Below, piece by piece: positions 9,944 to 27,881 of a stretch of DNA of 30,433 nucleotides (position 1 is its first letter; every line of letters begins with the position of its first letter). The stretch lies in IMG/VR virus record IMGVR_UViG_3300009164_000232, positions 1 through 30,433 of that record; one strand, given 5' to 3'. Both the position numbers and the translations under genes were made by a program. The DNA comes from a virus. Under the pieces are notes generated by a model, which made no database searches, was not told the origin of the DNA, and saw nothing but the letters and a program-made list of their open reading frames with translations.

Positions 9944-10894
9944 TTAGAGGATTCCTCCGTAGTATAAAGTTATGCCCATTAGGACCACTGGAATAACCAA
10001 GGCAAAGATTGCCTTGTAGTAATCCTTAAGAGGGGTTCTAAAGTAGCTTTTACCTACAACTAAACACTTATGTGCTGGAGATAACATATATCCTGCGTAG
10101 TCAACTGCAAAGAATAGCGGCAAAGTTTCTATGCCAAATACTCCTACTGAGAGGACGACAAATCCAGCAAACTTGCTAGAACTTCCCAAGGCAAAACTTG
10201 CCAAGAATCCAGCAAAGGCAACTAGGATTAATAAATTATTTTTGTGTGCACCTTCTATCCATGCATTTATGGTATCAAAATTAGCCTTGACAATATTGCT
10301 CAAGATAATGACAATACCAGTAAAAAGAAGAACTCTGGCATAGTCAATCAGCTGCTTACGGTCACGCTTTGCTTCTGCCTCAATTTGAGCAAGCTGCATA
10401 TCTTTTTTCTTCAAAGCTTTTTCTGGAATATTAATTTCAATATCATCTTCTTTTAGAATTCTAAATATATAGAATAAAATAACAATTACGGCTGTAGCAA
10501 GCAATGGCCAAACTCTACCCATTAGCTCCCAATAACTAATACTTAGTGCCGCCATTGGAAGAAGAACTGTTGCTTCTAGCGGAGACCAGAAATAAAAATG
10601 ATGCGTAGAAAGGTAATCGATGATTCCATAATTCTTACGTTTCTTTTGATCCTCTGGGGCAATTGTATCTAGGGCTCCAGCCGAGATGGCAACACGCCCT
10701 GAAATGGGCAGAACTCCAGAGAACATTGATATTAGAGCAACTACTGCCCTCTTAGACTTAACGGTTCTAGAAATCCAACTATAAAATGGCAAAAAAACTT
10801 GAGTCTTTTTTGCAGCAAATGACAGCCCCATTACTGAAGCCAGCAATATTAGGAACTGTTGATTATTTGTAATTAAACTACTTGTTATTTCCAT
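9944..10894 (-). CDS. DUF401-like multi-pass membrane protein (316 aa)
   Basis: A polytopic inner-membrane protein with about eight hydrophobic segments. Examples are around residues 13-27, 48-65, 105-120, 128-145, 190-205, 220-240, 245-270 and 295-315. SGVLPISGRVAISAGALD near residues 58-75 resembles the 'G-LLP-x-(P/S)-GG-x-x-x-SA-x-x-x-D' signature of DUF401 proteins. LSPAHKCLVVGKSYF near residue 275 resembles their 'LSPxHxCLxxxxxYF' motif. DUF401 proteins are uncharacterised, transporter-like and usually near 400 aa, so this copy is short. A charged cytosolic loop (about 148-185, EKALKKKDMQLAQIEAEAKRD) splits it in two halves. It overlaps the U32/methyltransferase gene by 17 bases, so it belongs to that operon. 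A membrane permease is unusual in a phage tail region and may be an auxiliary metabolic gene. Substrate unknown. Confidence 0.75.
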   Translation of the reverse strand: MEITSSLITNNQQFLILLASVMGLSFAAKKTQVFLPFYSWISRTVKSKRAVVALISMFSGVLPISGRVAISAGALDTIAPEDQKKRKNYGIIDYLSTHHFYFWSPLEATVLLPMAALSISYWELMGRVWPLLATAVIVILFYIFRILKEDDIEINIPEKALKKKDMQLAQIEAEAKRDRKQLIDYARVLLFTGIVIILSNIVKANFDTINAWIEGAHKNNLLILVAFAGFLASFALGSSSKFAGFVVLSVGVFGIETLPLFFAVDYAGYMLSPAHKCLVVGKSYFRTPLKDYYKAIFALVIPVVLMGITLYYGGIL

Positions 10895-12536
10895 TGTTTT
10901 CCACTACTACTATGTAAAGTCCGTTCCACCAGTCTGTCTCGGACTCTAATGAATTTAATACTTTCTTACTATACAATATTGTTAATCCTGAGTCAACTAT
11001 TCCCTTATGAGCTCCTTGTACTACCTCTATCCAGTTTGCATCATCAAATATTAAAATAGCCTGATCTGCAAATGTTGATGTATAGTATTTTACTGCATTT
11101 TTAGTAGACTCAAAATCGTGAGGTCCATCATAAAAGAAAAGGTCTATGCCTGATATATTTTGGACATTAACCTTAAACATATCTGAGTTAGATATAAATA
11201 CCTTGTTGTCACCTTTATAAGGGTTAATATTATTTTTAAATTCTTCTAGAGAGTTTGTCTTTGGGGTTTCCCACCCTCTTCTTACGGCCTGTGGAGCCTC
11301 CTCCCATGTGTCTACAAAATATGCTTGTAAAGTATTACCGCTTAATGCTGCAGCGGCTGTAGCGCCCTGATAAGACCCAATCTCGAGGTATTTAGAAGAT
11401 GATCTAGCTAGGCCATTAATTAAAGACTGAACTCTTGTTGAAGTTAATCCTGGAATATCTATTTTAATTGGAGCATTTACGGAATCAACTAGTTCTTTTA
11501 CAACAGCAGCAACTTTTGGATTAATGTGATTTCCATACTTAACTGCCATTATTTTGTCACAATAGCCACAATCCCAACAGTCAAATTTACAGGTTTTAAT
11601 TTTATTGCGCCATACTGAAATTGGCTTATCTACCATATTAGTTTCTTCAATAAAATCATTAAAGCTATCAAAGAGTATTTCTTCATTATTGGCATATTTT
11701 TTAATTATATCCATTGTCTCTTTAAGTCTTACATGCGACTCTCTGCCGTGCATTTTAATAACATCAATTCCAAGGTCGTCAAGAAATTCTTGCCAGTCCT
11801 CACGCCATGGAGGGAAATTAGCAGTCTTTAAAGCAATTGAAAAATCTTCATGATTCCATTTTGGGCAGGAAACTCTGCTTATAGGGTCATTAAAATATTG
11901 AGGCCCATCTGTCCTTGTATTGTTAAATTGATAATGCTCATCCATCATTATGCACCCGCCAGCGCAAGACTCATTAGCCAATAGGGAAAGTTTTACACCA
12001 AATTGAGCTTTGGCTTTTTTAAATCTTCTCAACTTGTCATGATCTCTCATAAGATCTCTATCCAAGTTTATATAATCAAATCCTGCTTGGGCTAGCTTTT
12101 CTATATCTCTTGGCTCTGATACATTTCTTAATATTGTATTTTTTACAAATAGTTCTGGGAAAGCTTTTTTTATCTGCCCAGTAGCCATCCAATGGGTGTG
12201 AGGGATTGTTGCTGATCTAATTCCAGCGTTGTATACTTCTTTAAAATTTTCAATAAATAGATCTAAGTTTTGTTGTGATGGCCTAACTTCAATATTATTA
12301 AAGACAGCTGAAGCCGTTATTCCAGTTTCATTTTGTATGCTGATAGCAAGTGCAATTAAATAGTCATAATCTTCTTCTTTGCCAACAAATATGTCTCCCA
12401 TTGCATCTTGATGAAATGGTTCAATTCGGCATGTAAAATAAAAATCATATATAAAAGGTTTATATTCTTTTAAAAAAGAAATAAACTCCTTCATCTGATT
12501 TTCATTAAGCTTTGGGTTTAACGGTACGCTAAACAT
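10878..12536 (-). CDS. Fusion of a U32-like Fe-S TIM-barrel domain and a class I methyltransferase (552 aa)
   Basis: Residues 1 to about 340 form a barrel-like domain (FYFTCRIEPFHQDAMGD, repeated alpha/beta units). LLANESCAGGC with C191 and C195, then SCP with C224, resembles the 'NxxCxxxC' cluster of the peptidase U32 family, whose members bind 4Fe-4S and mostly act on RNA, quinones or unknown targets. A second group CKFDCWDCGYC (C316, C320, C323, C326) could hold another cluster. From about 375 a Rossmann methyltransferase follows: YLEIGSYQGATAAAAL (motif I, SAM loop), AYFVDTW (acidic residue D409), LFFYDGPHDFEST (about 466-478) and ILIFDDANW (about 494-502), as in Methyltransf_24-type enzymes. 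It is 5 bases downstream of the 183-aa gene and overlaps the permease. Likely an oxygen-sensitive modification enzyme; substrate unknown. Confidence 0.72.
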   Translation of the reverse strand: MFSVPLNPKLNENQMKEFISFLKEYKPFIYDFYFTCRIEPFHQDAMGDIFVGKEEDYDYLIALAISIQNETGITASAVFNNIEVRPSQQNLDLFIENFKEVYNAGIRSATIPHTHWMATGQIKKAFPELFVKNTILRNVSEPRDIEKLAQAGFDYINLDRDLMRDHDKLRRFKKAKAQFGVKLSLLANESCAGGCIMMDEHYQFNNTRTDGPQYFNDPISRVSCPKWNHEDFSIALKTANFPPWREDWQEFLDDLGIDVIKMHGRESHVRLKETMDIIKKYANNEEILFDSFNDFIEETNMVDKPISVWRNKIKTCKFDCWDCGYCDKIMAVKYGNHINPKVAAVVKELVDSVNAPIKIDIPGLTSTRVQSLINGLARSSSKYLEIGSYQGATAAAALSGNTLQAYFVDTWEEAPQAVRRGWETPKTNSLEEFKNNINPYKGDNKVFISNSDMFKVNVQNISGIDLFFYDGPHDFESTKNAVKYYTSTFADQAILIFDDANWIEVVQGAHKGIVDSGLTILYSKKVLNSLESETDWWNGLYIVVVENNGNNK

Positions 12537-22789: not shown

Positions 22790-23020
22790 TTACTCAGAAA
22801 CCACTTCAATAGCGTCCCATTTGCCAATTGGGCATGAAGCATGTGGAAGCTTTGTTTTTGCTGCCATAAAACATCCACATTTTTTGCAGGTTTTTGTTGT
22901 TTGAATAAGTTCTGGACAGGCTTTACAAATATCATATCTTTCAAGAGCAATTTCAATTGGAACTCTAGTCTTTGTAAGAAACATATCCCATGGTCTTGCT
23001 TTCTTTGGTTCTTCAGACAT
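22790..23020 (-). CDS. Small Cys-rich zinc-binding-type phage protein (76 aa)
   Basis: Six cysteines in a compact pattern: C32-x2-C35, C45-x2-C48-x-C50 and C63, within ICKACPELIQ, CKKCGCFMAAKTKLP and SCPIGKW. This 'CxxC...CxxCGCfM..KtKl...CPxGKW' signature is common in short proteins of aquatic T4-like phages and is probably a zinc ribbon. A folding, scaffold or nucleic-acid role is possible; none is established. The start codon overlaps the stop of the 222-aa gene (TAATG). It closes the duplicated gene-pair block. Confidence 0.82.
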   Translation of the reverse strand: MSEEPKKARPWDMFLTKTRVPIEIALERYDICKACPELIQTTKTCKKCGCFMAAKTKLPHASCPIGKWDAIEVVSE

Positions 23021-23688
23021 TATTCATAATCCTTTCTTTGCCAAAATTTTCTTTTATACATAGCTCCTGGTTGAGAGTCCCATCTCCAAAAATCTTTATA
23101 AAAATATGTATTTTGATCATCAACGGATAGTTTCCAAGGCTCTCTTTTAATTGGAATAATTTGAACCAAGGGGGTGCCTGCTGGGATTAAACCGCTAAAA
23201 TCTTTTTTCATAAAAAACGGAAAATTAATAATTACTGGATGAACATCTGCATCTACTATTCCAGTTAGGCTGTAGAAAGGTAGATCTGTTCTATTTAAAG
23301 GATGTGTTATTAAAAGACTGTATCCTTTTGGTGCTTTTAAATGCCATTGATTTGTCCATTTAAATGGATGAGGAATTAAATTTTTATCAATTTGCATTTC
23401 TTCTGTTTGAAAATCCATGTGCTGACTTATGGCGTTATCATAGTTTGCATTTTCTAAAAATCTTCCTGATTTCTCATCAAACATAAAATCAACATCCGTT
23501 ACAATAACATATCCTGCCGTAAAAGCATCTAAAATTGGGATACATCTTTTTATAGACATTTCTCCCTCAACAAGAGCAGGAATTGTTTTAAACCAACTTG
23601 GAATTAAAGACTTTGCTGTTTTAGGTGGAGTAAAATCAATATACCTATTCGCTGTCTGAGCTTTGAGAATCTTCTTCTTGGGTCTCAT
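23020..23688 (-). CDS. Conserved phage protein, second duplicate, with dUTPase-like sequence pattern (222 aa)
   Basis: Paralogue of the 232-aa protein just upstream. Shared features are SLIPSW/QWxK near residue 28, CIPILDAFTAGYVIVTDVD, the block GYSLLITHPLNRTDLPFYSLTGIVDAD (about residues 120-146), INFPFFMKKDFSG and GTPLVQIIPIKREPW. The order 'G-I-V-D-x-D...GTP-x-V-Q-I-x-P' recalls dUTPase/dCTP deaminase motifs, so a related jelly-roll fold is possible. The catalytic set is not clearly complete, and the family may be one of the DUFs of unknown function (DUF6065 comes to mind, unconfirmed). No membrane segment is seen. The start overlaps the 99-aa gene by 44 bases, behind an AGGAGAG site; the first 15 residues are Lys-rich and may be a start artefact, but no later Met fits. 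Confidence 0.75.
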   Translation of the reverse strand: MRPKKKILKAQTANRYIDFTPPKTAKSLIPSWFKTIPALVEGEMSIKRCIPILDAFTAGYVIVTDVDFMFDEKSGRFLENANYDNAISQHMDFQTEEMQIDKNLIPHPFKWTNQWHLKAPKGYSLLITHPLNRTDLPFYSLTGIVDADVHPVIINFPFFMKKDFSGLIPAGTPLVQIIPIKREPWKLSVDDQNTYFYKDFWRWDSQPGAMYKRKFWQRKDYE

Positions 23689-23944: not shown

Positions 23945-24643
23945 TTAAAACTCTTTCTTCTTCCAAAATCTTTTTTTATAAGACCATGGGTATAGTCCAT
24001 TTTCGTCAGGAGTGCGTAATTTTGTGTTTTGATCTATTAATATTCTATCATTAAAAGAGTCGTCTGTCCACATCTTCCATTTAGTTCTTTTATATGGGAA
24101 TATTTGAACAAAGGGAGTTCCTTCTGGTATTGTTCCGCTAAAATCTTCTTTAATAAAAAAAGGAATATTCCCATTTCCCTGAAAACCATCGCTATCAATA
24201 ATTCCATTTAATGTTGTAAATGGCAAATCAAATCTGTTAAAAGGGTGTGTTACAAATGTGCTATATCCCCTTGGCGTTTTCCATGACCATTTGCATGACC
24301 AAATAAATCCCATTGGTAGATGTCCAGCTGGTCTAGGTATTGTTGAACCTAATTCTTTTGCACGTTCGCCAACAAAATCTTCCCAACCTTCTGGGCCTTG
24401 CCATTTAACTTGAGTGTTTCCTTCTTCATCTTTAAATATGTGAATGTCAAATGGAGTAAGTATTTCATATCCACTTGACATAATTTCCATAAACGGGATG
24501 CAAGATTTCATTCCATTGCCTTGCTTTACGCCATCAATTATGACTTCAATTTCACCTTTTTTCCACCACTGTGGAATCAAAGACCTAACTGGCTTAATTA
24601 ATGGATAATGTTCAACCCATGGAATAAACTTTATTAATTTCAT
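23945..24643 (-). CDS. Conserved phage protein, first duplicate, with dUTPase-like sequence pattern (232 aa)
   Basis: Starts MKLIKFIPWVEHYPLIKP and continues with SLIPQWWKKGEIEV, CIPFMEIMSSGYEILTPFDI, then TPRGYSTFVTHPFNRFDLPF and TLNGIIDSDGF (about residues 130-160), PFFIKEDFSGTIPEGTPFVQI and FPYKRTKWKMW. The motif GIIDSD followed by GTPFVQI-x-P resembles dUTPase motif III and the adjacent 'G-x-R-I-A-Q' strand; conserved His, Asn, Arg and Asp residues are shared with the duplicate. The start overlaps the stop of the 70-aa gene (TAATG). It is the more complete member of the pair. Enzyme activity is not established. Confidence 0.75.
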   Translation of the reverse strand: MKLIKFIPWVEHYPLIKPVRSLIPQWWKKGEIEVIIDGVKQGNGMKSCIPFMEIMSSGYEILTPFDIHIFKDEEGNTQVKWQGPEGWEDFVGERAKELGSTIPRPAGHLPMGFIWSCKWSWKTPRGYSTFVTHPFNRFDLPFTTLNGIIDSDGFQGNGNIPFFIKEDFSGTIPEGTPFVQIFPYKRTKWKMWTDDSFNDRILIDQNTKLRTPDENGLYPWSYKKRFWKKKEF

Positions 24644-24855
24644 TAAACACCTGCGATAGCGTCGGCTTTAGAGTCTCCTGGAACAGCTAAGTCATTGCAT
24701 CTTACTACTTCTGGATTTAATATCCATAGTGCTGCTTGTGCTAGATTGACGTCCATAATTTGTTGGACTACTCCATCTACAACTATTGCAAATTTAACTA
24801 ATGTGGCCTCTTGTTCTTTTGTTACAAAAGTCCATTGTGGGATTTCTATTGTCAT
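24643..24855 (-). CDS. Small conserved partner protein, first duplicate (70 aa)
   Basis: A 70-residue protein with VKFAIVVDGVVQQIMDVNL and ALWILNPEVVRCNDLAVPG, related to the middle of the 99-aa protein of the second duplicate. A strong AAGGAGG site precedes the ATG. It begins the duplicated block 12 bases after the Cys-repeat adhesin and is translationally coupled to the 232-aa gene (TAATG). Likely beta-strand/helix fold; function unknown. Confidence 0.75.
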   Translation of the reverse strand: MTIEIPQWTFVTKEQEATLVKFAIVVDGVVQQIMDVNLAQAALWILNPEVVRCNDLAVPGDSKADAIAGV

Positions 24856-24867
24856 TTTTTCCTCCTT

Positions 24868-26346
24868 TTAAGATATAGATACACTTTGTGCTGATATGCC
24901 TTGATTATAAACGCTTGGATTAGCAATTATACCGTAATTGGTGTTAATCTTCAATCCCGTTGCTTGATGTATTAAATCAGAGCCTATTTGACTAACAAAT
25001 AAAGCATCTGAATATGTTTTTGTTGTTATGGTAGCAGTTGAGCCACCTTTTGTGGCATTTGTAATTATTACCCTTAAAGATCTTATTATCGGATAAGATG
25101 TCAATGAGTCTAAAGTTTGAGATGTAATTTCAGTTAATACGTTTGATACATATTTAAAAATTTTAATTTTTCTAGGATATGTGTCCTGGTAGCTGGTACA
25201 GTTACCACCAGTTTGTATACAATTTTGTCCCGCACCGCATGGGTTATAACTATCTCCAGAATAATAATAGTAACCACTTGCAGCAGGGGATCCATTTAAA
25301 CAATTATTCCAATATGACGGAGTTCCATTTAAACAATTATTCCAGGTCGCTGGATTTCCATTTAAACAATTATTCCAATATCCAGGGGATCCGTATCGGC
25401 AATCATCATAATATGACGGAGTTCCATTTAAACAATTATTCCAAGATGCGGGGGATCCAGTTAAACAATTATTCCAATTTCCATTTACTACACCTGCTTT
25501 GCAACAAGAATTCATATCTTGTGTTGTCCAATAAATATATCCACCTACGCAGGGGTTTAAGTATGCACAAGAATTATAAGCATTATAAGCTTTACAACAA
25601 GAAACATAGTAGCTGCCATAAACTAAACAGTTTCCGAAGGTTCTACAGTTTCCTCCTGTTGCTACACAGTTTCCTCCAGTTTTACAATTATCATAATATT
25701 GATGAGGAGTTGTTGTGTATCCACAAATAGCTTGAGGTTCTATATTTGCACAATTAGAGTAGAAACTGGCATTAACTCCAGGAGAGCAGTTATTTGTATT
25801 GGATCCGCCAGAGCAATTGTCTGTATACCATCCACCAGAACAATAATTTCCGTTTGTTCCGCCAGAGCAGTTATCTGTATTGGATCCGCCAGAGCAATAA
25901 CTTGTATTTGCTCCAGCACCGCAATTATCTCCGTATGCCCAAAAATTAGTACCAGAGTAAGGTCCGCCAGTAGCTACGCAACCATTTCTTGCTCCGCAAT
26001 TATCAACAGCAGAATATGTTCCACAATTTCCTGTTCCGCTTGAAATTTCTTGAGATGTTACAACTGCATACCAATTTCCAGAATCAGTTACCCACAATGC
26101 TGCGCCTGTTCCAATTCCTGGATTAACAATATCTATTGTAACATTTGGACTTGACATTGTTGTAGATAACAAAGGATATTGAGCTGGGTTAGATGCAGAT
26201 ACAGAGTTTGTTCCTGCGGTCCATCCTGATCTAACAACCTTCCAACCATTTCTTAAAGTATTTTGAAATAGATCTTGAAAAGATAAGAATCCTTTTAGTC
26301 TTGATGAAGACACAACCGCTCTTCTTGCTCTAATTCTAGATGCCAT
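24868..26346 (-). CDS. Cysteine-repeat tail adhesin (492 aa)
   Basis: Residues 1-106 and about 390-492 look like beta-sandwich halves (GAALWVTDSGNWYAVVTSQE before the repeats; KIKIFKYVSNVL, SLRVIITNATKGG and YSDALFVSQIGSDL after). Between them, residues 108-383 contain 30 cysteines. About 142-187 are five 9-residue units (CSGG-x-x-x-x-x, e.g. CSGGSNTDN). About 291-356 are six 11-residue units (WNNCLNGTPSY type), plus GNCVATGGNC units near 225-235 and CIQTGGNC near 376-383. Regular Cys spacing suggests a disulfide-stabilised solenoid inserted in a loop of one lectin-like domain. The first 20 residues are Arg-rich, as in other virion adapter ends; no signal peptide. The start overlaps the preceding fibre's stop (TAATG) with AGGAGA 12 nt upstream. 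Adhesin role inferred. Confidence 0.85.
   Translation of the reverse strand: MASRIRARRAVVSSSRLKGFLSFQDLFQNTLRNGWKVVRSGWTAGTNSVSASNPAQYPLLSTTMSSPNVTIDIVNPGIGTGAALWVTDSGNWYAVVTSQEISSGTGNCGTYSAVDNCGARNGCVATGGPYSGTNFWAYGDNCGAGANTSYCSGGSNTDNCSGGTNGNYCSGGWYTDNCSGGSNTNNCSPGVNASFYSNCANIEPQAICGYTTTPHQYYDNCKTGGNCVATGGNCRTFGNCLVYGSYYVSCCKAYNAYNSCAYLNPCVGGYIYWTTQDMNSCCKAGVVNGNWNNCLTGSPASWNNCLNGTPSYYDDCRYGSPGYWNNCLNGNPATWNNCLNGTPSYWNNCLNGSPAASGYYYYSGDSYNPCGAGQNCIQTGGNCTSYQDTYPRKIKIFKYVSNVLTEITSQTLDSLTSYPIIRSLRVIITNATKGGSTATITTKTYSDALFVSQIGSDLIHQATGLKINTNYGIIANPSVYNQGISAQSVSIS
25279..25476 (-). repeat. Six tandem 33-bp repeats coding for Cys units of 11 residues
   Basis: Six in-frame copies lie inside the Cys-repeat adhesin. 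Several share a long near-identical core; on the plus strand it reads CCATTTAAACAATTATTCCA in most copies. The units code for W-N-N-C-L-N-G-x-P-x-x, with one variant copy (YDDCRYGSPGY). The DNA-level similarity points to recent copy-number change. Confidence 0.9.
25786..25923 (-). repeat. Five tandem 27-bp repeats coding for Cys units of 9 residues
   Basis: In-frame copies lie upstream in the same gene, coding for C-S-G-G-x-x-x-x-x (e.g. CSGGSNTDN, CSGGTNGNY, CSGGWYTDN, CSGGSNTNN), preceded by the looser CGAGANTSY. Three copies share the plus-strand core GATCCGCCAGAGCA or a close variant. The period differs from the 33-bp array downstream, so two separate expansions occurred. Confidence 0.88.
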
Positions 26347-27881
26347 TATGCGTCAATGTCTCCTGTTAGAATCCAGGCGTTGGATGCTCGTTTTTCTAAA
26401 AATGCTGATGAATATTGTGTTCTTGTTTTTAAATATCCGTCTGTTGAAACTATTGTAGCAGGGGAAGTAACAGAAAATATAAGTCTTCCCGCACCCATCT
26501 GTCTTAATTCTAAATTTGACCCAATTGGCCAAGTAACATTTGTTGGGTCGGTTGGTATTGTAATTGTTACATCTGTTGCTGAAGTAAACTCTGTCATCTT
26601 TCCAGAATTAGCAGATGAGATTGTATATGATGTTGCGGCAGATGAAGTTGCATACTCTACAACATCTACTAAATAAGAATTTATTGATCCCCGCATTGAA
26701 GAATGATATTGACACACATAGTATAAATTATCTGGTGCTGATTGAGGTAGTTCTACTAAAATAGATCCACTATCTGTTCCCGCATTTGTTATTCCTGTAG
26801 AATAAATATTACCTACAGAATATGCACCACTTACTGTTTGTATCCAAAATGGGTGGCCTGAAGCGTTTACAATGATTCTATATTTTTTGCCTTTTTTAAA
26901 ATCAATTGTTCCATTTAAAACTCCGTTTACAAGGTATCCACCTGATCCAGAATTAGTTATGTAGACATCAATTGCTGGTTCTGATATAGCAAGCTTAGAG
27001 TCTAATGCTGCTTGTGTTGCAAAATCTGCATCCGTTAAAGATGCATTAAATTGTGCTAGTGTTCCAGTAAGGGTGTTTCCGCCTATTTCAATTAATATTC
27101 TAGTTCCGCCACCAATAATAGCTATTCCAGATGTATATCCAAGTCCAGATGATGCAACAGTAATAATTCCTAAACTTGATATGTTTATTTTTCCGCCTTT
27201 ATCTAAACCATCTTGAAATATAGCAATATTATTTTGTCCAAAAAATCCTTCGATGTTGTCATATCCAGAAACAGAAGTAATTCCATTTGATATTGATATA
27301 GTTTTATTTTTAAGGGTGTCCTGGCTTGTTGCAGTTATTTTAGTGCCTAAAGCTGTTGTAATAGTTGCAGCATAAGATGAATCATCATTTATTGCAGCTG
27401 CTAATTCATTTAAAGTATCTAATGCTGTTGGCGCCCCATCAATTAAATTTCCTAATTCTGATAAAGGAATTTTACCGTTTGAATCTAAGGAGGCAACTCC
27501 ATCTGCATTCCCTACAACACTGAGTGGAACATAAGTTATTGCGGATGTACTACCTAGGCCAGAGACGGCGGAATCAACATAAGTCTTATTAGCAATAGTG
27601 CTATCAACTGCTAATGTGATTGTATTTGCGGCATCATTATAAACTTTAGTAATTCCTGTGCCTGCTGTTAATGCTGATTCAACTGCATCTTGTGCTAATT
27701 CTGTAAATTCACTTGGAAGAACATTTAAATATGGTAAAGAAGACCATAAAGATGATCCGTTACCAACTTTTAGTTTATTTAATGTTGTATCTAATCCAAG
27801 TTCTCCTATGGATAAAATCTTAGAAGAAACATTCCATTGTGCAGTTGTTGCTCTTCTTATTTTTATTGTTACAAATGACAT
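26346..27881 (-). CDS. Tail fibre with Mtd-like N-terminus and a cupredoxin-like domain (511 aa)
   Basis: Residues 1-52 (KIRRATTAQWNVSSKILSIGELGLDTTLNKLKVG) match the 'IRRGT...W...NPvLa.GE.G...dt..lKiGDG' N-terminal domain of phage fibres such as Mtd. Residues 71-94 have the ALTAGTGITK-YNDAANTITL module shared with the 755-aa fibre. About residues 316-410 form a cupredoxin-like domain: YRIIVNASGHPFWIQT with H343, STGITNAGTDSGSILVELP, and YYVCQYHSSMRGSI with C390, H393 and M396, a full set of type 1 copper ligands by position. The last 100 residues are a beta domain like that of the 221-aa stalk, ending WILTGDID. The start overlaps the 84-aa gene's stop (TAATG). Fibre call firm, copper binding inferred. 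Confidence 0.85.
   Translation of the reverse strand: MSFVTIKIRRATTAQWNVSSKILSIGELGLDTTLNKLKVGNGSSLWSSLPYLNVLPSEFTELAQDAVESALTAGTGITKVYNDAANTITLAVDSTIANKTYVDSAVSGLGSTSAITYVPLSVVGNADGVASLDSNGKIPLSELGNLIDGAPTALDTLNELAAAINDDSSYAATITTALGTKITATSQDTLKNKTISISNGITSVSGYDNIEGFFGQNNIAIFQDGLDKGGKINISSLGIITVASSGLGYTSGIAIIGGGTRILIEIGGNTLTGTLAQFNASLTDADFATQAALDSKLAISEPAIDVYITNSGSGGYLVNGVLNGTIDFKKGKKYRIIVNASGHPFWIQTVSGAYSVGNIYSTGITNAGTDSGSILVELPQSAPDNLYYVCQYHSSMRGSINSYLVDVVEYATSSAATSYTISSANSGKMTEFTSATDVTITIPTDPTNVTWPIGSNLELRQMGAGRLIFSVTSPATIVSTDGYLKTRTQYSSAFLEKRASNAWILTGDIDA

Follow-up and report, generated by a model that had tools for sequence, protein, structure and literature searches.

The window, by which we mean the whole stretch of DNA analysed (30,433 nucleotides), is a 30.4-kb IMG/VR virus contig whose minus strand is full of tail-fibre genes. 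Within it lies a 492-aa ORF, a candidate adhesin gene, which is flanked by a fibre gene and by small genes. The features discussed below were located as follows.

23945–24643, minus strand: phrog_7084 gene, the neighbour used as an anchor
24643–24855, minus strand: conserved gene of 70 aa, next downstream of the adhesin; most relatives have a gene of 68–94 aa in this position
24868–26346, minus strand: adhesin gene, predicted ConA-like lectin with a Cys-rich insert, 492-aa ORF
24871–25197, minus strand: second half of the predicted lectin sandwich, residues 384–492 (AF2 pLDDT up to 84; VIA)
25198–25599, minus strand: C-terminal arm, residues 250–383, 15 Cys (mirror analysis)
25285–25476, minus strand: 11-residue array (WNNCLNGTPSY type), residues 291–354, 6 Cys, rungs 9–4
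25600–25626, minus strand: tip loop LVYGSYYVS, residues 241–249, at the mirror axis, with Cys240 and Cys250 on either side
25627–26025, minus strand: N-terminal arm, residues 108–240, 15 Cys (mirror analysis)
25762–25923, minus strand: 9-residue array (CSGGSNTDN type), residues 142–195, 6 Cys, rungs 4–9
26026–26346, minus strand: basic N-terminus and first half of the predicted lectin sandwich, residues 1–107 (conserved in all relatives; AF2 strands; VIA alignment)
26346–27881, minus strand: tail-fibre gene with an Mtd N-terminal domain, upstream of the adhesin (PF18454, E 5e-11; PHROG tail families)

The adhesin contains 30 Cys, all of them within the 276 residues from 108 to 383, as an earlier reading made from the DNA letters (the sequence-only reading) had noticed, and the flanks contain none. 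With the Cys content of the other large ORFs of the window at 0.5%, the binomial probability of 30 Cys in 276 residues is 3e-30. The first array carries Cys at positions 142, 151, 160, 169, 178 and 187 (9-residue period) and the second at positions 294, 305, 316, 327, 338 and 349 (11-residue period). Both arrays reported in the sequence-only reading are therefore real, but its count of five 9-residue and six 11-residue units has to be amended to six Cys, that is five full periods, in each. Self-identity at periods 9 and 11 was 0.47–0.55 compared with a shuffled maximum of 0.35–0.36 (5000 shuffles). At the DNA level TRF detected a 27-bp unit in 5.5 copies and a 33-bp unit in 5.7 copies, with two 33-bp units being exact copies of one another. 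The 9-residue units GGSNTDNCS (window 25846–25923, minus strand) resemble the RTX pattern GGxGxDxUx with Cys at the buried position; such RTX-like GGxNxDxCx units are confined to the window and its relative L002.

The fibre gene with the Mtd_N domain lies directly upstream of the adhesin slot in most relatives, and we infer that its product carries the adhesin. As regards a diversity-generating retroelement of the Mtd type, Mtd_N was found only in this upstream fibre, and no RT was noticed among the ORFs of the window, which is a fragment. At about residues 308–400 the upstream fibre has a cupredoxin-like GHPF...C..YH..M motif, a possible type-1 copper site, in a region with no Pfam match; fibre proteins of cyanophage P-SSM2 share the motif, as does the fibre adjoining several Cys-rich relatives. 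The 70-aa gene downstream of the adhesin had no family match. In many relatives small six-Cys DUF6171-like and DUF6065-like genes (window 22790–23020 and 23020–23688) are found alongside the adhesin slot, and the fibre cluster also encloses a DUF401 membrane protein (window 9944–10894) and a Methyltransf_24 protein that has a long unassigned N-terminal domain besides (window 10878–12536). A dedicated oxidoreductase partner was considered and rejected as inconsistent, with thioredoxin present in 3 of 10 contigs and glutaredoxin over the cut-off in 3 of 10. The kind of phage was approached through an 82-kb relative, G001, whose MCP is 57–60% and whose protease is 42–43% identical to those of Streptomyces phages. 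Its gene order is that of Streptomyces phage Mildred21 (Stanwilliamsviridae), namely glycosyltransferase, ribonucleotide reductase, (fibres), portal, protease and capsid, and its fibre cassette sits between the reductase and the portal. The phage thus appears Stanwilliamsviridae-like by the gene content of G001, the window itself holding no capsid gene, and its host may reasonably be supposed to be an actinobacterium.

The family was assembled from IMG/VR and comprises 34 full-length Cys-bearing members and 7 Cys-free members from the same gene slot. Close relatives were collected first; another clade, whose arrays are of the GGNC (7-residue) and NPYNPC (9-residue) types, was reached through the motif GNCxxTGGNC, although the NPYNPC DNA pattern also matched many unrelated proline/cysteine low-complexity frames. 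With the neighbouring phrog_7084 gene as anchor the gene slot was gathered from 43 loci, and further members were added by a last search. Profile comparison united the clades (A3–A5, E 8e-47; A5–A7, E 1e-75) and joined the Cys-free members through the C-terminal half (E 3e-20). The window protein had no match in Pfam, PHROG or PDB sequences, and flank-only versions gave none that was convincing, Laminin_G_3 and other annotated lectin families included. No cultured-phage relative was found by tblastn against INPHARED at E up to 10, no bacterial or archaeal relative in GTDB genome contigs, and no description of such a Cys-laddered adhesin in the literature. Foldseek matched three BFVD entries from uncultured Caudovirales phage (A0A6J7WYT9, A0A6J7WRS3 and A0A6J5RDN1; E 2e-15 to 1e-7), all named 'uncharacterized protein', and these very likely belong to the family. 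The family is new and unannotated, and its predicted membership of the ConA-like fold comes by model only.

In the AF2 model of the window protein strands appeared only in the two flanks, where pLDDT was mostly 50–85 (63–84 in the better blocks), and none was placed with confidence in the insert (pLDDT about 23); the model of L017 also failed in the insert. Foldseek with the window model found nothing significant in the PDB (E ≥ 0.9). VIA-align fitted both flanks jointly to ConA-like folds, with an alignment covering model residues 5–492, and its top match was the tip domain of mycobacteriophage Douge gp20 (Z 10.8, rmsd 3.5, 151 residues). The L017 model reached Z 10.1, ConA-like folds filled the match lists of both models, and the receptor-binding domain of TM4 gp23 (9n6a) was also listed for the relative's model (Z 9.1). 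Because both flanks fit such folds together, the earlier suggestion that they make up a single beta-sandwich, one loop of which harbours the arrays, is supported by a model of moderate confidence. Carbohydrate binding is putative. The lectin fold prediction and the neighbouring tail genes likewise bear out the adhesin context. The Douge gp20 tip domain binds mycobacterial cell-wall glycans (PMC13033339).

We then considered how the Cys might be arranged. All 34 full-length Cys-bearing members have an even number of Cys (14, 16, 20, 22, 24, 26, 28, 30, 32, 38 or 42). Clustering at 95, 80 and 60% identity sorts these members into 31, 20 and 11 clusters, respectively; on the tree of members the number of Cys must have changed 13 times or more, and the probability of 11 independent even results by chance is 2^-11. 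The gaps between successive Cys were moreover mirrored about the middle of the insert, with a mean r of 0.63, 0.59 and 0.77 in the three cluster sets, and none of 3000 permutations was as high. When the three outermost gaps were left out r was still 0.49, 0.46 and 0.70. Alternative registers gave an r of −0.25 to −0.34 for parallel pairing and of about 0 for a mirror offset by one rung. Read inward, the gaps in the window are 9 6 19 9 9 9 9 9 12 9 13 6 7 6 in the N-terminal arm and 7 6 21 11 11 11 11 11 12 1 15 6 9 1 in the C-terminal arm (r 0.82, p 0.0004). In the window, L017 and L032 clades most rungs have a C-arm gap that is longer by 2 than the N-arm gap, and this applies to irregular gaps too (for example 19/21); in L032 the irregular N-arm gaps 12 and 10 lie opposite C-arm gaps of 14 and 12 at the same rungs. 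The gaps of L166 are 2 3 3 9 11 41 16 and 3 2 8 9 10 42 16 (r 0.99). A simple mirror failed in four relatives, L003, L004, L034 and L070 (r −0.25 to 0.17), and some of the Cys in these must therefore be paired in another way. Repeat processes acting on DNA do not yield proteins with the same pattern in both directions, and the mirror is therefore naturally explained by a structural constraint, whereby the kth Cys from the start of the insert would pair with the kth Cys from its end. Parity was first noticed on 29 sequences, and the five later ones (L164–L174) agreed; for the most part the sequences that revealed parity and mirror also served to test them, and the independent part consists of L164–L174 and the split genes described below.

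The even parity and the mirrored spacing argue that the Cys are structural and paired, as the sequence-only reading had supposed, and they bear on two other uses of Cys. Binding of metal ions or clusters instead of disulfide formation would suit a reducing cytoplasm, and very weak Fer4_2 matches occurred in 3 members (best E 0.057). Many of the counts (14, 22, 26, 30, 38 and 42), however, are not multiples of four, which disfavours four-Cys metal sites; the main arrays lack a CxxC...CxxC layout, and Tyr, Phe, Ser and Thr occupy the same region in the Cys-free relatives, so that we regard metal binding as very unlikely. Bonds to other chains of a fibre trimer or to other virion proteins, with the two arrays as independent low-complexity spacers, would agree with the frequent trimeric state of tail fibres and with inserts that usually change faster than the flanks. 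Even parity in every member together with an in-register mirror spacing would be unexpected in that case, and interchain bonding seems to us quite improbable.

The mirror axis falls on a conserved Cys-flanked loop in the window clade, in L017-type members and in L032 (CLVYGSYYVSCC in the window; CGIPFAASYWCC). The numbers of Cys on either side of this loop are 15/15 in the window, 14/14 in L002, 16/16 in L017 and 19/19 in L032. The distant members L164 and L165 share FIYGSYYIAYGCC or FVYGGYYIAYSCC at the axis, with 11/11 Cys and a YG(S/G)YYIA..CC motif. The units of the two arrays vary in step, with 6+6 in the window and 5+5 in its nearest relative, L002, and other paired changes per arm were seen between L017 (16/16) and L013 (15/15) and between L117 (12/12) and L120 (13/13). 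The sequence-only reading had proposed a disulfide-locked solenoid with regular Cys at every turn and had likened it, as analogy only, to insect antifreeze proteins; in the form weighed here it would be a one-chain beta-solenoid with each turn bonded to the next. Regular periods of 9 and 11 residues and the gain and loss of repeat units are what such a one-chain solenoid would show. Turn-to-turn bonds, however, predict neither a mirror symmetry across the insert nor equal counts around the tip, and they would not lead one to expect that two unlike arrays change their copy number together or that the gene can be split exactly at the apex and stay viable. Where the number of Cys per arm is odd (15/15, 19/19), pairing inside the arms alone cannot use all Cys, and at least one in each arm would be left without an in-arm partner. 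Structure prediction of the repeat region, which had been proposed as a check, yielded no solenoid in AF2, but at a pLDDT of about 23 this is evidence neither way. We consider the solenoid improbable; the data favour two antiparallel arms with array 1 bonded to array 2.

A natural break of the gene was encountered in two diverged phages from different metagenomes, L167:3001-3986 and L168:3001-3986, after the two-armed model had been formed. Here the adhesin gene consists of two ORFs with 10 Cys each, laid out as the N-terminal half and N-terminal arm, a stop, the ribosome-site-like sequence GGGAAAGG, an ATG, and then the C-terminal arm and C-terminal half. The break sits at the apex that the model would predict. 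The gaps of the two arms, 2 3 21 3 5 3 6 3 17 and 3 2 24 2 7 2 8 2 12, are correlated (r 0.94, p 4.5e-4). The codon differences between L167 and L168 comprise 51 synonymous and 5 nonsynonymous ones, which indicates that both halves are kept by purifying selection.

Taking together the Cys pattern, parity, mirror symmetry, coupled copy number, split gene and predicted lectin fold computed here, we think it probable that the protein is a tail-fibre adhesin in which an antiparallel two-armed disulfide finger projects from a receptor-binding ConA-like lectin; metal binding, a single solenoid and interchain bonds all rank below this. The gene would belong to a lytic siphovirus-like phage related to Stanwilliamsviridae. 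The 276-residue insert would occupy one loop between two lectin strands and consist of an outward arm, a tip turn (C-LVYGSYYVS-C) and an antiparallel return arm. Mirror-partner Cys would be bonded as C108–C383, C117–C376, C123–C370, C142–C349 and so on to C240–C250. The 9-residue array would then lie opposite the 11-residue array rung by rung, and for this reason the two would gain and lose units together. Because the rungs are 7–11 residues apart, a plain flat beta-ladder is excluded and the arms must be coiled or bulged. We infer that the protein resides on the virion and binds a receptor, that the insert has the shape of a finger, and that the disulfides form by oxidation after the virion leaves the reducing cytoplasm. 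With up to about twenty bonds, the finger may serve as a variable disulfide-stiffened element that reaches the lectin toward the host surface.

The function of such a finger was weighed against the way in which the inserts evolve. Nearly every close pair shows more rapid divergence in the insert than in the flanks, with L053/L091 as an exception, and 300 of 302 aligned Cys are kept in close pairs. The rapid length change foreseen from the DNA copy numbers was supported by the 6+6 units of the window and the 5+5 units of an 89% identical relative, and in relatives of 67–74% identity both arrays are wholly replaced by other Cys-rich stretches, with the tip and the ends retained. The two-armed finger could be real and yet be a stiff spacer or stability element, with the lectin face binding the host, and conservation of the tip loop in the clade of the window and purifying selection on the inserts (w about 0.02–0.6 in close pairs) accord with such a role. 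We hold it to be rather unlikely, as the arms of related phages are very different in sequence and entire arrays have been swapped, as in recognition loops. That the two-armed finger represents a new architecture and a new mode of diversification, a zipper of 7 to 21 rungs formed by two unlike arrays in step and even by two polypeptides, is a tentative proposal, to which we give slightly less than even weight.

Several known systems offer partial likenesses. Insect antifreeze beta-solenoids have 12-residue turns running in one direction, and they share with the phage protein the regular Cys in short repeats. The phage units CSGGxNTDN (9) and WNNCLNGTPSY (11) differ from 12-residue TCT-type repeats, the periods are mirrored 7/9 or 9/11, and no PDB sequence match was obtained; with unit lengths of 7, 9 and 11 and a mirror symmetry, the antifreeze analogy drawn earlier is weak. 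Theta-defensins have antiparallel strands with stacked disulfides in an 18-residue cyclic peptide with 3 rungs, whereas the phage finger would have 7–21 proposed rungs, 7–11 residues apart, inside a lectin, and mirror spacing and parity fit this proposal. The term 'cystine ladder' is in use for theta-defensins (PMC13408038). Bovine ultralong CDR H3 is a long beta-sandwich loop with a two-strand stalk and a variable Cys number and disulfide pattern that serves recognition (PMC5994613), and by analogy the long loop of a beta-sandwich may in both cases have grown a two-strand, Cys-variable element. The two are not homologous: CDR H3 belongs to an immunoglobulin fold, has 40–70 residues and knob disulfides and is diversified somatically, while the phage adhesin would have a ConA-like sandwich and a ladder all along two arms. 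The S16/T2-type gp38 is a tip adhesin (polyglycine sandwich) with a repetitive loop-extension domain and hypervariable segments that is hard to predict (PMC6851490), but it consists of Gly-rich PGII helices on a beta-helix base and lacks a Cys ladder. When the window adhesin was compared with this type it gave no PHROG match and no confident AF2 model of the insert. In the Douge gp20 tip (8zdp/8zdq) and TM4 gp23 (9n6a) a ConA-like sandwich, such as is predicted here, ends an actinophage tail fibre, at about 11% identity to the window adhesin, and no Cys-laddered insert is reported for either.

The feature itself is real and unusual, and a two-armed disulfide-zippered finger is a better description of it than a solenoid. 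Should the proposal be true, evolution has given phages a binding element that consists of a long loop on a lectin scaffold and is diversified through disulfides; its principle can be compared with that of bovine ultralong CDR H3, and a single such protein, made in a reducing cytoplasm, has as many as 42 Cys. The parity and mirror rule would read the pairing from sequence alone and so provide exact disulfide maps for a fold missed by current predictors, and the coupled copy-number evolution of two unlike repeats would be demonstrated in a family without an annotated member.

A comparable arrangement was seen among the Cys-free proteins of the slot (L133:3564-4988, L129, L131, L132 and L135–L137), in which Tyr/Phe-Thr/Ser repeats replace the Cys arrays. 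In L133 the period of the Tyr-led units shortens from 7 to 6 in one arm and lengthens from 6 to 7 in the opposite arm, and the two switches lie at roughly corresponding rungs.
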